Assembly (NCBI RefSeq): GCF_900129295.1
Contig: NZ_FQUU01000009.1
Location: 1 to 64,000 of the forward strand
Direction of reading: 5' to 3'
DNA length: 64,000 bases
From: Flavisolibacter ginsengisoli DSM 18119
GTDB taxonomy: Bacteria > Bacteroidota > Bacteroidia > Chitinophagales > Chitinophagaceae
The notes below the pieces were generated by a model that was not told the origin of the DNA, made no database searches, and was given only the letters and a program-made list of their open reading frames with translations. Positions 1,752-22,514 of this stretch are shown here, piece after piece (position 1 is the first letter of the stretch; every line of letters begins with the position of its first letter). The position numbers were made by a program, and so were the translations under genes.

Positions 1752-1973
1752 TCACATGATCTTAATAACCCTGGCAGGACAGGCATTAGATACCTGGCCC
1801 GTAAATTCTTTTTCGTTCACAGGCAAAGGAAGAATGTGCAAATCATTTTTTACCGTTGCATTTAATAAAACAGCTTTGCCGTCCTTTTTACTCATCCGCC
1901 AGAATTGTGGTTGCAACTCATAACATATGCCGCAGCCAATACACTTATTCCTATAATGAATGATCTTAAACAA
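1752..1973 (-). CDS. Small single-cluster [4Fe-4S] ferredoxin
   Basis: 73 residues with C11-x2-C14-x2-C17 and a distant C65 followed by Pro, the ligand pattern of single-cluster 4Fe-4S ferredoxins, which are cytoplasmic electron carriers. The only in-frame start is a TTG: the frame is closed by a TAG four codons upstream. This TTG lies inside the last codons of the U32 gene, giving an 8-base overlap and probable translational coupling. The coupling suggests it is the electron donor to the U32 enzyme, which is inference. It is the last gene of the nitric oxide reductase operon. Confidence 0.85.
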   Translation of the reverse strand: MFKIIHYRNKCIGCGICYELQPQFWRMSKKDGKAVLLNATVKNDLHILPLPVNEKEFTGQVSNACPARVIKIM

Positions 1974-3213
1974 GGTCTGTTTCTATTATTTTATAAAGTT
2001 TATCCTTTGCCGTGATCTTCTCAGTAATTTTAAAAGTGATCCTATCACCTTTGAAAGCCGCCGAAGACTCTTCTCCATTCACTACCAGCTTTTCCATTTT
2101 ATTCTTTATAAGTCCAAATGCCGGGCCCGTCACCATGAGGGTATCACCTCTTTTTATTGTTCCGGCTTCCACTATAAATTCTCCAACCCCTATCCTGGGA
2201 TAATATTTTGTGCCTTTACCGATATAGACTTTCTTTTCTGTTGCCCTGGAGCCAGGATCTTCTGTCCACTCGCCTAATTTCCTTCCCAGGTAGTATCCCT
2301 CCCAAAATCCACGGTTATATACTTTTTCCAGTTCCCTTTTCCAGGCCCCAACTTTTATTGGTGAATAACTTCCATCAGCTATGGCATCCAGTGCTTCTCT
2401 ATAACACCGGGTGGTTGTATAAACGTATTCGGGGCCTTTTGTGCGACCTTCTATCTTTATAACATCCACACCGCTGTTAACTACCTGGTCAAGAATATCA
2501 ATAGTACAGAGATCTTTGGCAGACATGATGTATTCATTATCCACCATCAATTCCTGGTTGGTCTCTGTATCAATAACCTTATAGGAATGCCGGCAATTTT
2601 GAAGACATGCCCCCCTGTTGGCAGAAGCATTCTGCTCGTGCAGGCTCAGGTAACATTTACCGGAAACCGCCATACACAATGCCCCATGGACAAATACCTC
2701 CAGGCGAAGTGGCTCACCAGATACCCCCTTGATGCCCCGGCGCCTTATCTCTTTAGATAGTTGTTCCACCTGTTTAAGGGTTAATTCCCTGGCCAGCACA
2801 ATGACATCGGAAAAAGCAGCAAAGAACAGCACAGATTCCAGGTTACAAACATTAGCCTGCGTAGATATATGCAGGGGAATACCTAATTCATTACACATGC
2901 GGATCACTGCAAAATCAGATGCGATAACAGCATCAACCTTCCGTTTTTTAGCCTCTTTTAATACCGTATGAAGCAGTTGCATATCGTGTTCATACATCAC
3001 CGTATTCAAAGTAAGATAGGCTTTCACCTTATTTCTCCGAGCTATGGAAACGATCTCCTTTATATCATTTATAGTAAAAGGATTGATTGAGCGCGCCCTC
3101 ATATTCAGTTGCTCCACTCCAAAATAAAATGAGTCGGCACCTGCCTTCACTGCAGCCTGCAGGCATTCAAATGACCCTACCGGGGCCAGCAACTCTACCT
3201 TATTGTTCTTCAT
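1966..3213 (-). CDS. U32 family enzyme, TrhP-like (tRNA uridine hydroxylation)
   Basis: 415 residues. The U32 signature E-x-F-x2-G-A-L-C-x4-G-K-C-x-L-S is intact (EVFVHGALCMAVSGKCYLS, near residue 172), with more cysteines just after it (GACLQNC) and a C-terminal beta-barrel-like part. The family was named as peptidases, but characterised members TrhP/YegQ and RlhA hydroxylate RNA, and UbiU/UbiV carry 4Fe-4S clusters. The length fits TrhP (B. subtilis YrrO about 420 residues) and not the roughly 650-residue RlhA. The likely role is 5-hydroxyuridine formation at tRNA wobble position 34. It overlaps the ferredoxin gene by 8 bases. A weak hairpin lies in the 66-base gap before it. Confidence 0.85.
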   Translation of the reverse strand: MKNNKVELLAPVGSFECLQAAVKAGADSFYFGVEQLNMRARSINPFTINDIKEIVSIARRNKVKAYLTLNTVMYEHDMQLLHTVLKEAKKRKVDAVIASDFAVIRMCNELGIPLHISTQANVCNLESVLFFAAFSDVIVLARELTLKQVEQLSKEIRRRGIKGVSGEPLRLEVFVHGALCMAVSGKCYLSLHEQNASANRGACLQNCRHSYKVIDTETNQELMVDNEYIMSAKDLCTIDILDQVVNSGVDVIKIEGRTKGPEYVYTTTRCYREALDAIADGSYSPIKVGAWKRELEKVYNRGFWEGYYLGRKLGEWTEDPGSRATEKKVYIGKGTKYYPRIGVGEFIVEAGTIKRGDTLMVTGPAFGLIKNKMEKLVVNGEESSAAFKGDRITFKITEKITAKDKLYKIIETDLV

Positions 3214-3279: not shown

Positions 3280-3681
3280 TCAAAGGGGGATAGAATTCAA
3301 CCTGGATTTTTTAAAGGAAGGGTCGATAACCTGCTTCAATTGAATGAGAAGCGCCTTTGCCTGTAAATGACAAAAATCTTCATGCAGTTTTTTACTTACC
3401 CCCATTAAAGACAGGTCAAAGTATAAGTCAGCATTTACAGCATGGTTTTCAAGACAGTGTTTTGAACACGCCAGGGGACAACCATCTATCACTATGATTT
3501 TTCTACCTGAGGTAGCGGTCTTAACCAGCTTTTTAACATTGCCTCCCACACCCGCAATGCAGGACATTTCGGCAACTCCCTGGCGGTCCAGTTGCACGGC
3601 CAGGTAATTAGCCATTTGAGCGGAACTGGAACAGCCGGAACATGAATATACAAGAGGCAACTTTTCTTCTGTATGTTTCAT
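3280..3681 (-). CDS. DGC-domain putative zinc-binding protein
   Basis: 133 residues from the ATG at 3681. An in-frame start 63 bases upstream would run into the norB stop and adds an unlikely leader. The sequence has an N-terminal YSCSGCSS motif, then DGCPLACSKHC near residue 70, the Asp-Gly-Cys motif that names the DGC family of predicted metal-binding proteins. Six or more cysteines in 130 residues fit metal or Fe-S binding. No member has a firm function that I can name. It is 46 bases downstream of the nitric oxide reductase gene, so a role in NO or metal-centre stress is inferred from context. Confidence 0.8.
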   Translation of the reverse strand: MKHTEEKLPLVYSCSGCSSSAQMANYLAVQLDRQGVAEMSCIAGVGGNVKKLVKTATSGRKIIVIDGCPLACSKHCLENHAVNADLYFDLSLMGVSKKLHEDFCHLQAKALLIQLKQVIDPSFKKSRLNSIPL

Positions 3682-3727: not shown

Positions 3728-6064
3728 TCAATAAATAGCTTCATTTACGAGCTCACTGCCAGCTTTTAATTTTTCCAGTCCCGGTATATTTCTTTTCACC
3801 TTACTGCTTCCTTTTATCATCAACCATAATAGTGGAAATACACCTCCGAGTGTGAATAAAGCACCACCTAAAATCCTCAGCCAGGTAAATGTTTGAAACC
3901 CTTTACTCTCAATAAAACTGCTGCTCCTGGCAAACCAGAATCCTTTCTCGGCAACTGTCTGGAACTGCCATATACCTACCGGGAATAAGTCAAGAAAAAC
4001 CATTAATATCAAACCAACATTTATAGACCAGAAGATGATGCGCACCGTATTAGGTTTCCACCACCAACTTTTGCATAATAGCTGGCAACAGAATAATACT
4101 GCCGCAAGTGCCAGGTTGCCATAAACCCCCATCAACGCGGCATGCCCATGGTTAACGGTTAAATAGGTGCCATGCTCATAATAATTGGCGATTGGCAGGT
4201 TGATGATAAAACCCAGCACACCGGCACCAAAGAAATTCCAGAAGTTAACACCTATCAAAAACAGGAACACCTCTTTGAATCCAAATTGTTCACTGCTTGC
4301 GGTAGCACCCGAATTTTTTTCCAAAAGTCCCGGCATTTTACTAAACCTCCAGGCCTCAAGCGTTAACAAAACAAGAGGTATCACCTGCAGGGTAGAAAAC
4401 ACAGAGCCCAATGCCATTGTACCTACAGGCTTGGCATTCCAGTAGAAATTATGAGATATCCCCAGTAGTCCGGACCCGAGGAATAATAAAGTGGCCAGGT
4501 AAATAACACGAATGGTTGCCTGCCGGCTTACCAATCCCATTAACACCATGAAGTATCCAATAAGCACAGTAGTGAATACTTCAAAGAATGCTTCTGCCCA
4601 CATGTGTATTACACACCAGCGCCAGAAGTCTGCTATTACAAAATTAGTTTTAGGGCTAGCTATAAACCCTGAAATAAGCAAAAGAAGAATGCTGGCAGTG
4701 GTATACACCATCCAGTTTGGTAAGGCCCATGGTTGTCCCCATTTCATCACAGGCCGGATGCCCCTGTATAAGGTAATGACCCAGAGAACCAGGGCAGCTG
4801 CAAGAAGTACCTGCCACAGTTTGCCCAATTCGATATATTCCCAACCCTGGTGACCCAACCAATACCAATTGGAAAGTAATCCATGCGGCCCCATAAATAT
4901 ACCGGCCATTGATCCGGCCACAGTTGCTACCAGCAACCAATAAACAGAATTGACTAACAGTAATTGTTTTTTTGGCTGCACCTTCAAGATTAGCGGCATC
5001 ACAAAAATAGAAGCACCTACCCAGCAGGCTGAAATCCACAAAAGTGATAATTGCACATGCCAGCTCCGGGTAATGGTAACTGGCAACAGCGTTGAAATAT
5101 CCCACCCGAAGAACCGCACAAATCCTACAAAATCATGCACAGTCAAAATGCCTGACAATACCTGGACGGCAAAAAGGATGATAGCAGTATAGAAAAATTT
5201 ATAGGTAGCTCTTTGAATAGCATCGGGCCTGAATCTTTGCACTGCTTTGCGGGTCATGAAGTTGGATGACTTGTTTATAAAAGCATTATCATCCAGCTTG
5301 TCCATCCGTCCATGGTAATATAGCACCAGGCCTAACCCGATGATCAATCCCAAAGACCCAATGATGCTCCATAAAACAATAGCTGCACTTGGCGTATTAC
5401 CTGCCTGTGGATCAAACGGCCAGTTATGTGTATAGCTGTATGTTTTACCAGGTCTTTCAACACCACATACCCAGGCCCCCCAAAAAACAAAGGCTGTAAA
5501 AGACCTGATCTCGGCAGCATTGGAAAGATACCCCGCTGGCCTGAAAGCCCCAGGTGAAGCAGGATCTGTAAACTTTGCTGTATAATAGTTTACAAGCTGG
5601 GTGGCTGCATAGGCTTGTGCATCTGACAGTACAACTGTATTGTCAGAAGCATTGTACCTATTTGATTTGATCTCCTTCTTTACCTGCTGTTTCATACCCT
5701 GGCGTAATAGGTTATCATTGCTGCCACCTTTTAATCCTGAAGCATAAAACCGGTTCATGTATAATGTTACCTGGTGCAATCCTTCCGCTGTAAAATCAGG
5801 ACCCCTGTTGGCACCATCACCAAACATGCTTCCATATTCCATAAGGGCATACTTCTGAAATACTGCCTGGCCCTGTAGAATATCATCTTTGCTAAACACC
5901 CTGGTACCTTTTGAAGTAGAATAATCAGGAAGCGGAGGTGCTTCCGTATACGTGTGTATACCAATCATGGTTACACCTACCACGCTGATGGTGAAGATCA
6001 CAAGCAATGGCAACCACCAATTCTTTGGATTCAGTAAATAACTGATGAAGTTTTTTTGTCTCAT
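3728..6064 (-). CDS. norB: Quinol-dependent nitric oxide reductase (qNor)
   Basis: Single-subunit qNor, about 778 residues from the ATG at 6064, which matches the usual 760-790. One N-terminal membrane helix is followed by a large periplasmic domain (about 45-210) and then the heme-copper-oxidase-type helices. Visible ligands are SWHVQL (about 330), HMWAEAFFEVF with the non-heme-iron His and conserved Glu (about 485) and NHGHAALMG (about 635). It reduces 2 NO to N2O using membrane quinol, as respiration or as defence against NO. No other denitrification gene is near, which favours detoxification. A promoter with an overlapping palindrome lies just upstream. The TTG at 6085 is rejected as start because it almost touches the predicted transcription start. 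Confidence 0.95.
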   Translation of the reverse strand: MRQKNFISYLLNPKNWWLPLLVIFTISVVGVTMIGIHTYTEAPPLPDYSTSKGTRVFSKDDILQGQAVFQKYALMEYGSMFGDGANRGPDFTAEGLHQVTLYMNRFYASGLKGGSNDNLLRQGMKQQVKKEIKSNRYNASDNTVVLSDAQAYAATQLVNYYTAKFTDPASPGAFRPAGYLSNAAEIRSFTAFVFWGAWVCGVERPGKTYSYTHNWPFDPQAGNTPSAAIVLWSIIGSLGLIIGLGLVLYYHGRMDKLDDNAFINKSSNFMTRKAVQRFRPDAIQRATYKFFYTAIILFAVQVLSGILTVHDFVGFVRFFGWDISTLLPVTITRSWHVQLSLLWISACWVGASIFVMPLILKVQPKKQLLLVNSVYWLLVATVAGSMAGIFMGPHGLLSNWYWLGHQGWEYIELGKLWQVLLAAALVLWVITLYRGIRPVMKWGQPWALPNWMVYTTASILLLLISGFIASPKTNFVIADFWRWCVIHMWAEAFFEVFTTVLIGYFMVLMGLVSRQATIRVIYLATLLFLGSGLLGISHNFYWNAKPVGTMALGSVFSTLQVIPLVLLTLEAWRFSKMPGLLEKNSGATASSEQFGFKEVFLFLIGVNFWNFFGAGVLGFIINLPIANYYEHGTYLTVNHGHAALMGVYGNLALAAVLFCCQLLCKSWWWKPNTVRIIFWSINVGLILMVFLDLFPVGIWQFQTVAEKGFWFARSSSFIESKGFQTFTWLRILGGALFTLGGVFPLLWLMIKGSSKVKRNIPGLEKLKAGSELVNEAIY

Positions 6065-6090
6065 AAACAGCAGATTGTACCTCAATATAC

Positions 6091-6118
6091 TAATTAAAGA
6101 TATTTTTATCCTTAATTA
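6091..6118. promoter_or_regulatory. Palindromic operator, site 1 (norB)
   Basis: TAATTAAAGAT and ATCCTTAATTA form an 11-base inverted repeat with one mismatch and a 6-base spacer. Its core AAAGA-N8-TCCTT (6096-6113) matches two further sites near the Rrf2 gene. It sits between the -33 and -7 elements of norB, so a bound protein should block transcription. Binding by the Rrf2 protein encoded at 9893 is inferred. Confidence 0.65.
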
Positions 6119-6124
6119 TTGCAA
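6095..6124 (-). promoter_or_regulatory. norB promoter (TTG-N19-TATCTTTA)
   Basis: On the minus strand TTG (6124-6122) is followed after exactly 19 bases by TATCTTTA (6102-6095), one base away from the Bacteroidota -33/-7 consensus TTG-N19-TAnnTTTG. Transcription would start near 6089, giving a leader of about 25 bases before the ATG at 6064. The spacer is filled by the palindromic operator listed next, an arrangement typical of repression. Confidence 0.7.
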
Positions 6125-6177
6125 CCGGTTAAATCATTCATTTTCATACTTAGCATCAAAAGCAATATTGAAAAAGA

Positions 6178-7188
6178 TTACAGCCAGCCATTGCTCCTGT
6201 ACCAGGATATGGTTTCTTCTATTCCCTGTTTCAAAGAATAGGCAGGCTTTTTACCTAAATGGCCCCAAACTTCCTTGCTATCGCAAAGCCAGTTGGCACT
6301 GCTGATCTCATTGAGCTTTTCACGGTTGATAAAGGGAAGCTTTTTAAATACAAGCTGGTTCACAGATTCAATGGCAGAAATGCTCATTTGAACAGGTCGC
6401 AATGGAAGCTTTACCTTAACAGTCTTCTTTCCAAGACATAATTTTGCCTCGAGCCCTAACTGTTCTTTATTATAATCCATACCATCTGAAACTATAAAGG
6501 AACGCCGCACTTCCCGTGAGCTAAGCAAAGCTATTATTGCCTTAGCCAGGTCCTTAACATAGATCAGTGAGATCATTTGGGTATGTCGCCCTACATAGGG
6601 CTCAATGCCATTATTTACGAGCTTAATAAACTGGAAAAAATCTTTATCACGCGGGCCATAAACAGCCGTTGGATGGATAATGATAAAAGGAAGATGTTCA
6701 AGCGACTTTATATAATCCGCAGCCTTCATTTTGCTCCTGCCATACGCTGATATGGGGTTTTGCTCATCTGATAGCTTTATGGGTTGCATCTTATGTTCAT
6801 TGCCTGGCCCATAGGCGGCCAGTGAACTGACCAGGATAAATTTTTCAGGCACTATAGCCGCACCGCCCAGCGCTTCAACGAGGTTTTTGGTGTATTCATA
6901 ATTAACAGTATGGAAGTCTTCCTTTTTATGCGCCTGTGTTATGCCAGCATTATGAATGATATGATCAAAATGGCCATATTGATTTTTAAAAGCCTGCAAC
7001 TGACCCTCTAATTGATTGGCTGAAGAAAGATCCATTTCAAGAAAGCGCACCCCTGTATGCTGCAGGTACTGCTTATTACTTGAACGCCTGACGCCCGCAC
7101 ATACTTCATACCCATTGGCAATAGCTTCATCTACCAGGAAGCTGCCAATAAAGCCACTTGCTCCTGTTATCAGTATTCGTTTCTTCAT
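6178..7188 (-). CDS. NAD-dependent epimerase/dehydratase family protein, probable ceramide-pathway reductase (CerR-like)
   Basis: 336 residues, extended short-chain dehydrogenase fold. The N-terminal ITGASGFIGSF is the nucleotide-binding glycine motif and YGRSKMKAADYI (about residue 150) supplies the catalytic Tyr-x3-Lys. It is the last gene of a three-gene operon with serine palmitoyltransferase and a GNAT-like acyltransferase. In Caulobacter, ceramide synthesis uses the same three kinds of enzyme, where CerR, annotated as an epimerase, reduces the 3-keto group of the oxidised ceramide. That role is inferred here from the operon. Alternative: a sugar-nucleotide epimerase. The gap to the preceding gene is 15 bases. 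Confidence 0.8.
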   Translation of the reverse strand: MKKRILITGASGFIGSFLVDEAIANGYEVCAGVRRSSNKQYLQHTGVRFLEMDLSSANQLEGQLQAFKNQYGHFDHIIHNAGITQAHKKEDFHTVNYEYTKNLVEALGGAAIVPEKFILVSSLAAYGPGNEHKMQPIKLSDEQNPISAYGRSKMKAADYIKSLEHLPFIIIHPTAVYGPRDKDFFQFIKLVNNGIEPYVGRHTQMISLIYVKDLAKAIIALLSSREVRRSFIVSDGMDYNKEQLGLEAKLCLGKKTVKVKLPLRPVQMSISAIESVNQLVFKKLPFINREKLNEISSANWLCDSKEVWGHLGKKPAYSLKQGIEETISWYRSNGWL

Positions 7189-7203
7189 TACCTGTCAAAT
7201 TAT

Positions 7204-8328
7204 TCATTGAAGCTGTTTGATATAACACCTTCTTCTTTTGTGCAATGTAGCATCGAAATGTTCCCATAAAGACTGTACCTTTTTATTGTCCTCCAGCTCA
7301 TGGTTTGTTTCTGCAAACTGTATCCCGTTGCGTATGTAAGATTTTAATGTCTCAGACATAAGTAAAGAATTCACACCCTTTCCCTGCAGGTCTTTGCGAA
7401 TGGCTACCATCAACAGGTCGGCAGTGTTGTTTTTACGCATTGCTTGTAACAGGTGTAAAAATCCAAAGGGAAACAGTCTTCCACCCGACCGCTGCAGGGC
7501 TTTGGACAAAGATGGCATAGTGATACCAAATGCTGCTAACTTATCATCTTTATCAAGGATAAGCGATACAAAATCTGCCTTGATAAAAGAGAAATATTGT
7601 TTGGTATAATAATCAATTTGTCGTTGCGTAAGAGGTACAACTCCATATAGATCTGAATAAGCTGTATTGATCAGGTCAAAAATGGCTGGAGCATAAGGCA
7701 GCAACTCTTTTGCCTTCTTAAAACGCATTACTTTCAACTGCAATCGTCTTTCAACAATAGAAGCGATCTTCTCCAGCTTTTCATCCATGCGCTGGGGCAC
7801 CTTTACCCTGTATTCCACCCAGTCTGTATGCTTTTGGTAGCCCTGCTTTTCCATCAATACCGGGTAGTAAGGATAGTTATACAAAGCAGCAAGCGTGCCC
7901 ACCTGGTCAAAGCCTTCAATTAAAGTTCCTTCATGATCAAGATCTGTAAAACCAAGTGGCCCGTGAACTGCATCCATTCCAAGCTCCCTTCCCCATTCTT
8001 CCACTTGTTGCATCAGCGCTTTCACGATAGCTTCATCTTCTTCAAAATCTATCCAGCCAAAACGAATATGCCTGTCTTTCCATTTTTCAATATAGGCCTT
8101 GTTAATAATGCCAGCAATGCGCCCCACTACCCTGTTACCCTTATAGGCAAGCCAGTAACGTGCCTCGCAATATTCAAATGCGGGATTCTTATCTTTTCTT
8201 AAAGTAGCCTCTTCGTCAAAGCGCAAAGGTGGTATATAATAGGGATGGTTCTTGTACAACCTGTAAGGAAGGTCAATAAATGCAGCAAGGTCTTTTTTAC
8301 CCTGCACTTCTTTTATAACAATACTCAT
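7204..8328 (-). CDS. GNAT-like N-acyltransferase, probable bacterial ceramide synthase (bCerS-like)
   Basis: 374 residues of the long GNAT-fold family often annotated simply as N-acetyltransferase. The first part (about 1-130) contains the GRIAGIIN segment and the second a GKGVNSLLM segment (about 315), the acyl-CoA/pantetheine loop type. It lies between serine palmitoyltransferase (20-base gap) and the CerR-like gene (15-base gap), so all three are almost certainly co-transcribed. The bacterial ceramide synthase of Caulobacter belongs to this class of proteins and N-acylates 3-ketosphinganine. The function here rests on family plus context; no active-site evidence is claimed. Confidence 0.75.
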   Translation of the reverse strand: MSIVIKEVQGKKDLAAFIDLPYRLYKNHPYYIPPLRFDEEATLRKDKNPAFEYCEARYWLAYKGNRVVGRIAGIINKAYIEKWKDRHIRFGWIDFEEDEAIVKALMQQVEEWGRELGMDAVHGPLGFTDLDHEGTLIEGFDQVGTLAALYNYPYYPVLMEKQGYQKHTDWVEYRVKVPQRMDEKLEKIASIVERRLQLKVMRFKKAKELLPYAPAIFDLINTAYSDLYGVVPLTQRQIDYYTKQYFSFIKADFVSLILDKDDKLAAFGITMPSLSKALQRSGGRLFPFGFLHLLQAMRKNNTADLLMVAIRKDLQGKGVNSLLMSETLKSYIRNGIQFAETNHELEDNKKVQSLWEHFDATLHKRRRCYIKQLQ

Positions 8329-8348
8329 AGCTCTTCTTCTTTTAATGA

Positions 8349-9551
8349 TCAGTGGCGCTCTGCAAACACCTGCAACTCACTGGCTATCTGCTCGATCTTT
8401 CCAATAGCTTCATCCAGCTGGCAACGTGTATGGGTTGCCATAATAGACATACGGATCAGCGATGAGTCACTGGGAACTGCAGGCGATACTACAGGGTTAA
8501 CAAAGATGCCTTCTTCATATAGTCGTTGTGTAAATTGAAAGGTGACCTGGTTGTCACGGATATAGAAGGGAATAATAGGCGTTTCGGAAGTGTTGGTATC
8601 GAATCCTATGTCTCTAATTGCTTTTGAAATATAATGCGTGTTGTCCCATAAGGCTTCCATTCTTTCCGGCTCCTCCTGTATGATCTCCAGTGCCGCCAGT
8701 GCTGCCGCAGCAGCAGATGGAGGGATACTTGCACTGAAGATCATGGGACGGGAGTGGTGTTTCAAATAATTTATTACGTCTTTTGTTGAAGCCACAAAGC
8801 CTCCTATTGAAGCCAGTGACTTACTGAAGGTACTCATGATAATATCCACCTGGTCAGTGAGGTTAAAATGATCTGCAGTGCCCCTGCCCTGGTTTCCAAT
8901 TACACCAAGAGCATGTGCATCATCAACCATCACCAGCGCACCATACTTTTCAGCCAGCCTTGTGATCTCTGGAAGGTTGCATATGTCACCTTCCATGCTG
9001 AACACTCCATCAATCACGATCATCTTTACTTTATCATGAGGAAAGGTTTTTAATATACCTTCCAGGTCATTCATATCATTATGAGCAAACTTCAGTACCC
9101 TGGAAAATGACAACCGGCTGCCTTCAATAATGGAAGCATGATCCAGTTCGTCAAGAATGATCACACCATGCCGTCCTACCATAGAGGCCACTGTGCCAAG
9201 GTTGGTTTGAAAACCAGTGCTATATACCAGCGCGGCTTCCTTCCCGGTAAATGCTGCCAGCTTTTCTTCCAGTTCAATGTGCAGTTGAGAAGTGCCATTT
9301 AAAAACCTGGACCCGGAACAACTGCTGCCAAAGCGGTCAATAGCTTTTTTTGCTGCCTCCTTCACTTTGGGATGGTTGGTCAATCCCATATAGCTGTTAG
9401 ATCCAAACATCAGCAGTTTCCTGCCATGTATTATCACCTCTGTATCATGGTTCTCTTCAATAGGCCGGAAGTAAGGATAAATGCCAGCCCTTTTTAATTC
9501 ATTCGGAGCGGTAAACTGCTCAAACTTTTCCAATAAAGCTTGTTGTATCAT
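8349..9551 (-). CDS. spt: Serine palmitoyltransferase
   Basis: 400 residues, alpha-oxoamine synthase family (PLP fold type I). Visible are DHASII with the PLP-stacking His (138), DDAHALG (210-216) and TFSKSLASIGG with the PLP lysine K244. Blocks such as YFRPI, GSRFLNGT, SFSRVLKFAHNDM, FSMEGDI and FVNPVVSPAVPS look very like Sphingobacterium serine palmitoyltransferase and less like 8-amino-7-oxononanoate synthase or 2-amino-3-ketobutyrate ligase. It condenses L-serine with palmitoyl-CoA to 3-ketosphinganine, the first step of sphingolipid synthesis. It is first gene of the operon. Its promoter region carries a perfect 12-base inverted repeat shared in core with the norB operator. Confidence 0.9.
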   Translation of the reverse strand: MIQQALLEKFEQFTAPNELKRAGIYPYFRPIEENHDTEVIIHGRKLLMFGSNSYMGLTNHPKVKEAAKKAIDRFGSSCSGSRFLNGTSQLHIELEEKLAAFTGKEAALVYSTGFQTNLGTVASMVGRHGVIILDELDHASIIEGSRLSFSRVLKFAHNDMNDLEGILKTFPHDKVKMIVIDGVFSMEGDICNLPEITRLAEKYGALVMVDDAHALGVIGNQGRGTADHFNLTDQVDIIMSTFSKSLASIGGFVASTKDVINYLKHHSRPMIFSASIPPSAAAAALAALEIIQEEPERMEALWDNTHYISKAIRDIGFDTNTSETPIIPFYIRDNQVTFQFTQRLYEEGIFVNPVVSPAVPSDSSLIRMSIMATHTRCQLDEAIGKIEQIASELQVFAERH

Positions 9552-9654
9552 AGATCTTTTTAATGATAGCCTGCGTTGATTTACCTGGTTTGTATAGGGT
9601 GGTGAAAACAGAACGGTGGCAGGCCAATGGTTTATAATTGCGCAACTATGAGAA

Positions 9655-9662
9655 CAAATGTA
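9655..9662 (-). promoter_or_regulatory. spt promoter -7 box TACATTTG
   Basis: On the minus strand this is a perfect TAnnTTTG. Transcription would start near 9649, giving a leader of roughly 97 bases for spt. No TTG is found at the right distance upstream; instead the palindromic operator begins right at the box. Confidence 0.55.
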
Positions 9663-9693
9663 ATAAATAAAGACAATTTTATCTTTATTTATT
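9662..9693. promoter_or_regulatory. Palindromic operator, site 2 (spt)
   Basis: AATAAATAAAGA and TCTTTATTTATT are a perfect 12-base inverted repeat around an 8-base spacer. The core AAAGA-N8-TCTTT is at 9669-9686. It abuts the spt -7 box, 118 bases before the spt ATG. Core and spacing match the norB site. Confidence 0.65.
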
Positions 9694-9758
9694 TACCAAT
9701 CCGCTTATTTGAACTATTAAAAAATATAGGAATCAACCAATACTCATACAACCCTAAA

Positions 9759-9776
9759 AAGGATCAAAAAGTCTTT
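9759..9776. promoter_or_regulatory. Palindromic operator, site 3 (rrf2 side)
   Basis: AAGGATCAAAAAGTCTTT has the pattern AAGGA-N8-TCTTT. It agrees with the reverse complement of the norB core at 15 of 18 positions. It lies 117 bases before the rrf2 ATG and may serve autoregulation. Confidence 0.5.
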
Positions 9777-9892
9777 AATACAAAGCCTCCCTGATTTTGA
9801 ATTGATTATATCTTGAATATTATTATGGTAAAAACAGGAAGGTTGCCTTATTTTGCCTGTAAATCAGTTTTGATCTAGTAAATTATAGCCAG

Positions 9893-10360
9893 ATGTTTTC
9901 AAAAACTGCCGAATACGCTCTTCGTGCCACCATTTATATAGCCCAGAAAAGTAGTGAAGATAACAAGCTGGGTATTGAAGAAATTGCCAAATCAATTGAT
10001 GCCCCAAGGTCCTTCACTGCAAAAATATTACAACTACTTACAAAAGATAATGAGGTGATCAGTTCTGTTCGTGGACCTAACGGAGGATTTTATATTACCG
10101 AAAAAGCGAAGGGTTTATCTATAAGGACCATACTTGAAACGATAAAAGAGGATGATGTTTTTACCAAATGTGTGTTAGGCCTTAAGGCCTGTTCAGAAGC
10201 CCAGCCCTGCCCTATGCATTTTCAATATAAACCGATCAAGCAACAGTTAATTCGTTTGTTTGAAACCAAGACCATACGCGACCTGGCGAAGGAATTAAAA
10301 ACCGGCGAACGCTTCCTGGCCAATTTCCGTCCCAGGAAAAAGACAAGGGTTACAAAATAA
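9893..10360 (+). CDS. Rrf2-family Fe-S transcription regulator (IscR/NsrR-like)
   Basis: 155 residues. N-terminal winged helix (FSKTAEYALRATIYIA, then a recognition helix near SFTAKILQLL and the wing GPNGGFYI). Cluster ligands are C93-x6-C100-x5-C106-x2-H109. E. coli IscR uses C92, C98, C104 and H107, so one residue is added between the first two cysteines and the His is kept. NsrR has three cysteines in the same place and senses NO. It is divergent from the sphingolipid operon and close to the NO reductase operon, and the shared palindromes suggest both are targets. Direct sensing of NO, iron or oxygen cannot be decided from sequence. Confidence 0.88.
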   Translation: MFSKTAEYALRATIYIAQKSSEDNKLGIEEIAKSIDAPRSFTAKILQLLTKDNEVISSVRGPNGGFYITEKAKGLSIRTILETIKEDDVFTKCVLGLKACSEAQPCPMHFQYKPIKQQLIRLFETKTIRDLAKELKTGERFLANFRPRKKTRVTK

Positions 10361-21503: not shown

Positions 21504-22514
21504 ATGTGGCCATTCAAAAAGCTCAATTCATTTGTACAATGGCTCCTCATGATCTTCCTGATCCTGGTGTTTGGAATTACAGGCTACATGATAGTTGAGG
21601 GATACAGCTTCTTTGATGCCCTTTACATGGCCGTTATTACTATATCTACGATTGGATATTACGAGGTGAGGCCTTTAACTGCAAACGGAAGGATCTTCAA
21701 TATCATATTTATTATTACTTCCTTTACTACATTTACCTACGTATTGGCCAGGCTGACCCAATACATTCTCAGCGGTGAATTGGCGCACTATTTTACAACC
21801 AAACGACTTATGCAACAGTTAGCTAAAAAAGATAAGCATGTTATATTATGCGACTATGGACGTAATGGTCACCAGGCGGCTAAAACCCTGAAAGCTCACA
21901 AAATAGATTTTGTGATCATTGAGAAAAATGCAGTCAATATGCAAAACGTTGACGATCCCTCACTGGTTTTCATGATTGGAGATGCAACAGAAGATGAGAT
22001 GCTAGTAAAAGCAGGCATAGAAAGAGCCAGTACTCTTTTGACCAGTTTACCGGACGATGCTGATAATGTATTCATAGTTTTATCTGCGAGGTCACTCAAT
22101 TCACACCTGAATATCATTAGCCGTGCATCCAATATCAGCGCAACTACCAAATTATATAAAGCAGGTGCCAATCACGTAGTGATGCCGGATCTGATCGGTG
22201 GCACCCATATGGCTACGCTGGTATCCAAACCTGATGTCATTGAATTCATTGATTTTCTATCGGGCGAAGACGGTGAATCGATACATATTGAAGCAGTGAG
22301 CTATAATAAGCTGCCCTCCAATATCCGGGATACATCACTAAAGCATATTATGAACTGGAAGAAAACGGGCGTAAACTGCATAGGCATCAAGGATGTAAAT
22401 GGCAAGTTTCTCATCAATCCCCCAGAAGAAACCATTATCACAAAAGATATGAAAGTAATTGTGCTAGGCACAAAAGAACAAATAGCAGAGATGAAGAAAA
22501 ATGTTGGTGAATAG
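21504..22514 (+). CDS. Potassium channel family protein with RCK (TrkA-N/TrkA-C) domains
   Basis: 336 residues. Two membrane helices (about 11-31 and 64-86) flank a pore loop, TISTIGYYEVRPL (46-58). A Rossmann RCK domain (HVILCDYGRNGHQAAKTL, about 111 on) and a TrkA-C part (about 245-330) follow, an MthK-like layout. The filter reads T-I-G-Y-Y-E where canonical potassium channels have T-V-G-Y-G-D, so the third glycine is Tyr. Ion selectivity is therefore uncertain. The protein sits in the inner membrane with a cytosolic gating ring. It is convergent with the 2TM gene. Confidence 0.88.
   Translation: MWPFKKLNSFVQWLLMIFLILVFGITGYMIVEGYSFFDALYMAVITISTIGYYEVRPLTANGRIFNIIFIITSFTTFTYVLARLTQYILSGELAHYFTTKRLMQQLAKKDKHVILCDYGRNGHQAAKTLKAHKIDFVIIEKNAVNMQNVDDPSLVFMIGDATEDEMLVKAGIERASTLLTSLPDDADNVFIVLSARSLNSHLNIISRASNISATTKLYKAGANHVVMPDLIGGTHMATLVSKPDVIEFIDFLSGEDGESIHIEAVSYNKLPSNIRDTSLKHIMNWKKTGVNCIGIKDVNGKFLINPPEETIITKDMKVIVLGTKEQIAEMKKNVGE

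Follow-up and report, generated by a model that had tools for sequence, protein, structure and literature searches.

A candidate Rrf2 operator shared by nitric oxide reductase and sphingolipid synthesis genes in Flavisolibacter ginsengisoli

Described nitric oxide regulators and the Flavisolibacter locus

The NsrR regulon, described for Proteobacteria, Bacillus and Streptomyces with the motif gATGyAT-(N5)-ATrCATc (PMC1274295), offers the nearest comparison for the locus considered here; the passages of that paper drawn on name no lipid-synthesis target and no NsrR of Bacteroidota, and an excerpt of PMC9338935 gives a Streptomyces NsrR operator of 23 bp. Nitrosative stress in Bacteroidota is also controlled by HcpR, but this regulator belongs to the Crp/Fnr family and has another motif, and in the relevant parts of PMC1274295 and PMC13370916 its described target is mainly hcp. 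In a 64,000-nucleotide stretch (the window; G000:C24:1-64000) of the 4.68 Mb genome of F. ginsengisoli DSM 18119, a 26-bp palindrome, AAWTAARGAYAAWWTTRTCYTTAWTT, lies upstream of norB, encoding a quinol-type nitric oxide (NO) reductase, and again between spt, encoding serine palmitoyltransferase (SPT), and rrf2, a divergent gene for an Rrf2-family regulator. We consider it likely that an NsrR-like Rrf2 protein represses both norB and the predicted ceramide genes spt-bcerS-cerR through this operator, and that NO induces both.

The window Rrf2 protein resembles NsrR in family membership, three cysteines, palindromic operators and predicted targets, hmp and NO reductase among them. Predicted operators precede norB, flavohaemoglobin-type and DUF542-hemerythrin genes, which makes these candidates for the kind of control that NsrR exerts on NO-removing genes. 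It differs in scoring 36.4 bits against the NsrR equivalog model PRK11014, below the cut-off of 182, and the NsrR motif as excerpted from PMC1274295 differs from the operator found here. IscR likewise shares the family and some sequence likeness (53.6 bits), but this score is far below the equivalog cut-off of 207.55 and the linked genes here are mostly NO genes. The three cysteines (C93, C100 and C106), candidate iron–sulfur (Fe-S) ligands, are invariant in all 17 aligned Rrf2 homologues, and the protein is probably an NsrR-like repressor bearing an Fe-S cluster.

The Caulobacter genes spt, cerS and cerR encode the same three enzyme activities as predicted for the window genes, according to the pertinent text of PMC11324152, which also states that bacterial cerS always occupies an operon separate from the de novo synthesis genes; unlike in that account, the cerS-like gene of the window closely follows spt, under an Rrf2 operator. 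On the analogy of Caulobacter CerS and CerR, the bcerS-like product is a candidate ceramide synthase and the cerR-like product a candidate ketosphinganine/ketoceramide reductase, an assignment made from their GNAT and epimerase domains and from the order of the genes. The SPT scored 513 bits against SPT chains in the PDB (8guh/3a2b) and 224 bits against cysteate-C-fatty acyltransferase (28eh), values that favour a true SPT over the sulfonolipid enzyme. In the open-licence literature, no bacterial link between sphingolipids and NO appeared in titles or abstracts among the matches listed. For Rrf2 with sphingolipid, the text retrieved from PMC11475020 has the latter term in a reference title alone, and for nitric oxide reductase with serine palmitoyltransferase the matched text was fungal, with none from bacteria.

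The operator and its predicted targets

The first-pass annotation had reported the palindrome AARGA-N8-TCYTT at three sites, all of which are present (6096-6113, 9669-9686 and 9759-9776), as is the perfect 12-base inverted repeat that it placed at site 2 (9662-9673 / 9682-9693). It had missed a fourth match, at 22021-22038 inside an open reading frame (ORF) of 336 aa; the four matches compare with 0.47 expected, and none of 100 shuffles reached four. Across the genome, however, this motif occurred 85 times versus 82 in a reversed control and is therefore too loose, and unhelpful as written, so it was rejected as a genome-wide search term. The longer form TAARGAYAN4TRTCYTTA with two mismatches was likewise discarded (48 versus 47 control matches in the window's genome, 18 versus 20 in G004). 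Allowing one mismatch in the 26-mer gave no enrichment in 11 chosen genomes (29 places versus 31 in the control), and strict or high-scoring matches alone were therefore used.

Sites 1 and 2 prove to be the cores of the 26-bp operator, a longer palindrome common to norB- and rrf2-adjacent sites in relatives. A 26-position matrix trained on 15 sites from other genomes, with the window excluded, returned two strong matches in the 64 kb, operators 1 (34.4 bits) and 2 (33.4 bits; Table 1). In 20 Mb of random DNA of 70% AT, no match reached 27 bits, and 1, 9, 34 and 108 matches reached at least 21.7, 20, 15 and 11.4 bits, respectively; on these scores, sites 1 and 2 are real operator sequences. The spacing between operator 1 and norB recurs in loci L050-L053 (27 bp) and in G276 (28 bp), but not in L168 (265 bp by ORF call), and operator 2 has a counterpart in the same place before spt in the congeners G004, G122 and G124. 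Site 3, which the first-pass annotation had placed in the upstream region of rrf2, is indeed a palindrome in that position, and in the 341-bp gap that separates spt from rrf2 chance alone would produce its score of 11.4 bits only ~0.002 times. Its operator role is nevertheless doubtful, since the same gap holds no second site of at least 6 bits in G004 or at least 5 bits in G122 and G124.

Within the family (Chitinophagaceae), the strict 26-mer WWWWAARGAYRN4YRTCYTTWWWW occurred at 61 places in 38 of 116 genomes, compared to 7 places in 7 genomes for the reversed control. An Rrf2 homologue (E up to 1e-15) was present in 62 of the 116 genomes, and every genome with the strict 26-mer was among them (38/62 with the homologue versus 0/54 without; Fisher p 1.7e-14, a value to be read with the caveats that the Rrf2 search also picks up paralogues and that related genomes are not independent). 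The reversed control coincided with Rrf2 in 6 of its 7 genomes (p 0.12). One genome, G106 (L157-L165), carries nine strict 26-mers, of which three fall within called ORFs; no other of the 116 has more than three.

The survey of predicted targets covered 60 loci, each taken around an Rrf2 gene or a strict 26-mer, a choice that favours an NO-type outcome, with genes called by a simple ORF picker. Forty-seven sites scored at least 24 bits and 45 had a facing gene; 37 of these 45 had an NO or denitrification-type cluster within the first four genes, two more had rrf2 and one more another gene recurrent in NO loci. Among ten target-cluster representatives, eight had Pfam matches (two membrane proteins matched nothing): DUF2249 with DUF542/ScdA and hemerythrin; a COX1-family protein (NO reductase or oxidase); DUF2249/DUF1858; hemerythrin; truncated globin; cupin; flavohaemoglobin (globin, FAD and NAD domains); and a Cu-oxidase/cytochrome protein of nitrite-reductase type. 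Both norB and rrf2 itself were frequent predicted targets. The predicted regulon is thus very likely of NO and denitrification type. In the congeners G122 and G124 we also noted a second operator-like site (24-25 bits; L381/L382 near position 1501), which in G122 is flanked by a cytochrome c ORF and, on its other side, by one that by eye resembles N2O reductase and has no Pfam match.

Proposed control of spt: linkage, alternatives and origin

Within the genus, SPT was found in 4 of 18 genomes, the window's included, and all four have the operator before spt and rrf2 alongside (33.4, 34.6, 31 and 27 bits; 79-115 bp before spt). In three of them (G004, G122 and G124) operator, rrf2 and spt are kept and no norB match was found at E up to 1e-40. 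The spt-adjacent Rrf2 proteins of G122 (L293) and G124 (L294) are 50-53% identical to that of the window and the SPT proteins 80-82%, a pattern that would fit a regulator that has changed fast, or been replaced, while its operator was conserved. Outside the genus, G276 carries operator (38 bits), norB, dgc, spt, bcerS and cerR in series, with gaps of about 75, -8, 31 and 7 bp. The distant metagenome-assembled genome SZAS-70 has the window's two-operator layout, namely an operator (20 bits), spt-bcerS-cerR, an operator (16 bits) and norB; its Rrf2 sits on another branch of the Rrf2 tree than that of the window. In an SPT tree that includes 74 of 75 unlinked loci and has several unresolved forks, the SZAS-70 clade (support 100/99) is separate from the window clade (100/100; 13 rows, 8 linked), so the link between spt and the operator originated at least twice, unless it was lost many times.

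The -7 box of Bacteroidota has the consensus TAnnTTTG and usually lies ~19 bases from the -33 element. Site 1 had been placed by the first-pass annotation in the spacer of a norB promoter, with a TTG at -33 on one side and the -7 box on the other, but this spacing fails: 32 bases separate the two elements (CAA at 6122-6124 and TATATTG at 6083-6089), and the -7-like box is itself imperfect. At spt, the box TACATTTG does adjoin site 2, as had been claimed, at 2 bp from the 26-mer. Eight spt-linked loci were compared (the window, G004, G122, G124, G299, G246, L180 and SZAS-70, L236): TAnnTTTG follows the operator by 1-3 bp on the spt side, exactly in six and with one mismatch in G004 and L180, and an exact box never occurs on the side away from spt (0/8). 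More widely, among 116 distinct operators the box lay within 0-4 bp on 25 of the 165 sides that face a gene and on none of the 57 that do not, and it occurred in 0.6% of shuffled flanks; most operators therefore have no exact adjoining box. Judged by this one-sided placement, the operator is positioned for the spt promoter and not solely for rrf2.

We weighed an alternative in which operator 2 serves only autoregulation of rrf2, with spt a chance divergent neighbour whose promoter is uncontrolled. The two genes do diverge over one intergenic region, and in many relatives operators lie just upstream of rrf2; but the one-sided boxes described above argue otherwise, the window operator is 113 bp from spt versus 202 bp from rrf2, SZAS-70 has ~2.3 kb between its spt operator and rrf2, and the spt gene of G276 closely follows norB and dgc on one strand. 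Autoregulation alone is, in our estimate, quite unlikely. It would be unlikely, too, that the regulator responds to oxygen, iron or general Fe-S damage, so that the link would concern anaerobic or iron-poor membranes and not NO. Rrf2 Fe-S regulators differ in their signal, and the closest sequence matches among PDB chains are IscR (27 bits) and then NsrR (22 bits), as this alternative would have it; the predicted targets, however, are mostly NO-removing or denitrification genes.

A third alternative accepts that control of spt is real and supposes that spt came under the operator merely by insertion into or beside the norB operon, bringing no benefit. This is possible, if doubtful, and overlaps the proposal of joint repression, which needs no benefit. 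The norB-dgc-spt string of G276, the leader relic of L180 described below, norB-like leaders in G299 and G246 and the absence of a link at most SPT loci speak for it; against it, three congeners that lack a norB match retain operator and rrf2 at spt, and SZAS-70 shows the layout again with an SPT from a different clade. The retention in the three congeners, with a pairing that arose at least twice or was lost many times, underlies the tentative suggestion that sphingolipid synthesis is itself an effector of NO defence, whereby dihydroceramides made on induction would shield the membrane or its enzymes against reactive nitrogen. The appearance of Spt in the legend of plots of cysteine reactivity with NO or nitrite in B. 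thetaiotaomicron (PMC13370916, a 2026 preprint, of which excerpts were used) fits the idea of SPT as an NO target. Conserved SPT cysteines were also considered as a sign of NO sensitivity, but C78 occurs in 9/9 linked and 71/74 unlinked SPTs, and hence indicates nothing specific.

As to origin, the spt leader of L180 aligns over 60 bases to a norB leader and its first codons with a score of 33.0, a value reached by none of 188 control flanks; genuine norB leaders, each compared with its closest counterpart, score 24-47. This norB-like relic, the one clear case, suggests that spt captured the promoter of norB, and together with the G276 gene string it fits promoter capture after loss of norB. 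The leaders of G299 and G246, genomes in which norB is elsewhere and preceded by an operator, scored 20.5 and 22.5 (3/188 controls as high). No relic was detected in the spt leaders of the window, G004, G122, G124 and SZAS-70, for which 15 to 80 of the 188 controls scored as high.

Several observations weigh against joint control of norB and spt by an NO-responsive Rrf2 protein. Among 83 SPT loci fetched from the family and order samples (a few on short contigs, such as L103 of 3.0 kb and L334 of 4.9 kb), 8 are linked to the operator (9 counting the window) and 75 are not, so a general link between SPT and the operator was rejected. Five unlinked loci (G457, G362, G393, G324 and G044) fall in the window's own SPT clade, and in G362, which has an Rrf2 58% identical, an operator-like site lies away from spt while spt itself has none; a search at E up to 1e-12 found no Rrf2 in G457, G393 or G044, and G324 has a single match, at 38%. 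In the order sample, chosen without regard to Rrf2, SPT (E up to 1e-130) occurs in 69 of 396 genomes and 5 of these are linked (G000, G004, G246, G276 and G299), from two genera; L180 and SZAS-70 were discovered via Rrf2 and are therefore unusable for link frequencies. The spt-adjacent Rrf2 genes are scattered in the Rrf2 tree, where several forks are unresolved, and the G004 spt-rrf2 site was among the 15 used to train the matrix. In G299 and G246 the operator lies 297 bp from spt versus 45 bp from queD, the L180 operator is weak (15.0 bits), and the best control flank for the norB relic (31.5) comes near the L180 score, although that flank, L202 before dgc, may itself be a relic. Finally, 5 of the 45 operators with a facing gene face genes without an evident NO link. 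Taken together, the sequence comparisons indicate a link to ceramide synthesis that is recurrent and promoter-level, and uncommon.

Neighbouring features and implications

The minus strand of the window carries, in order, spt, bcerS, cerR, norB, a DGC-domain gene and a U32 gene (Table 1). Proteins with a DGC domain (PF08859) and U32 proteins are repeatedly present at NO loci in the family (L054, L183, L184, L188 and L204), sometimes without a nearby norB, and for this reason may belong to the NO response without having been recognised as such. In relatives, rrf2 is often directly preceded by a queD-like (PTPS) gene (L051, L053, L180, L183 and L286), which is missing from that position in the window. 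Full-length bcerS-like genes also occur in NO loci without an adjoining spt (L198:1636-2751 and L212:4555-5661), and L055:1211-1324 holds a 38-aa fragment. Proteins alike by eye lie near an operator at L054:5374-7182 (-) and L376:1558-3024 (+), the former of about 600 aa and without a Pfam match.

Table 1. Positions of the genes, operators and promoter element discussed, in window coordinates
Feature	Position	Strand	Remarks
U32-family protein, downstream of dgc	1966..3213	-	PF01136; under operator in several relatives too
dgc, DGC-domain protein, downstream of norB	3280..3681	-	PF08859, 106 bits; adjoins norB in several relatives too
norB, quinol-type NO reductase	3728..6064	-	cytochrome c-like domain (PF22085) fused to COX1 domain (PF00115)
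Operator 1, 26-bp palindrome upstream of norB	6092..6117	-	27 bp from norB ATG at 6064
cerR-like NAD-dependent epimerase/dehydratase, candidate ketosphinganine/ketoceramide reductase	6178..7188	-	PF01370; 15 bp after bcerS
bcerS-like GNAT N-acyltransferase, candidate ceramide synthase	7204..8328	-	PF00583; 20 bp after spt
spt, serine palmitoyltransferase	8349..9551	-	NCBIfam NF047600, 686 bits (cut-off 640)
-7 box of spt	9655..9662	-	matches consensus
Operator 2, 26-bp palindrome in the spt-rrf2 gap	9665..9690	-	-7 box on spt side
Site 3, weak palindrome upstream of rrf2	9755..9780	+	function doubtful
rrf2, Rrf2-family regulator	9893..10360	+	PF02082, 79.3 bits (cut-off 30); three invariant Cys

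What the sequences show is an operator that co-occurs with Rrf2 homologues, has predicted targets mostly of NO type in relatives, and is found repeatedly at spt or at a norB-spt string. The earlier proposal of an Rrf2 palindrome joining NO reductase and the ceramide operon accordingly stands as a sequence link, by virtue of that co-occurrence, the NO-type targets, the -7 boxes and SZAS-70, and falls in its third site, its motif as written and its norB spacing. In the mechanism that we infer, the Rrf2 repressor would bind the palindrome, which occupies the DNA immediately upstream of the -7 box at norB and at spt-bcerS-cerR; NO would damage its Fe-S cluster and release the DNA, and NO reductase and dihydroceramide synthesis would be induced together, with a consequent change in lipids. 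Probably, spt first lay within a norB operon, and the loss of norB left it under that gene's promoter. The advantage could lie in replacing SPT damaged by NO, or in a membrane with greater resistance to reactive nitrogen.

If this proposal holds, Bacteroidota would gain a defined operator for an NO-type Rrf2 regulator, and a eukaryote-like lipid class would be tied to NO, such that the membrane may be rebuilt on NO exposure. When and why bacterial sphingolipids are made would then become directly testable through exposure to NO.

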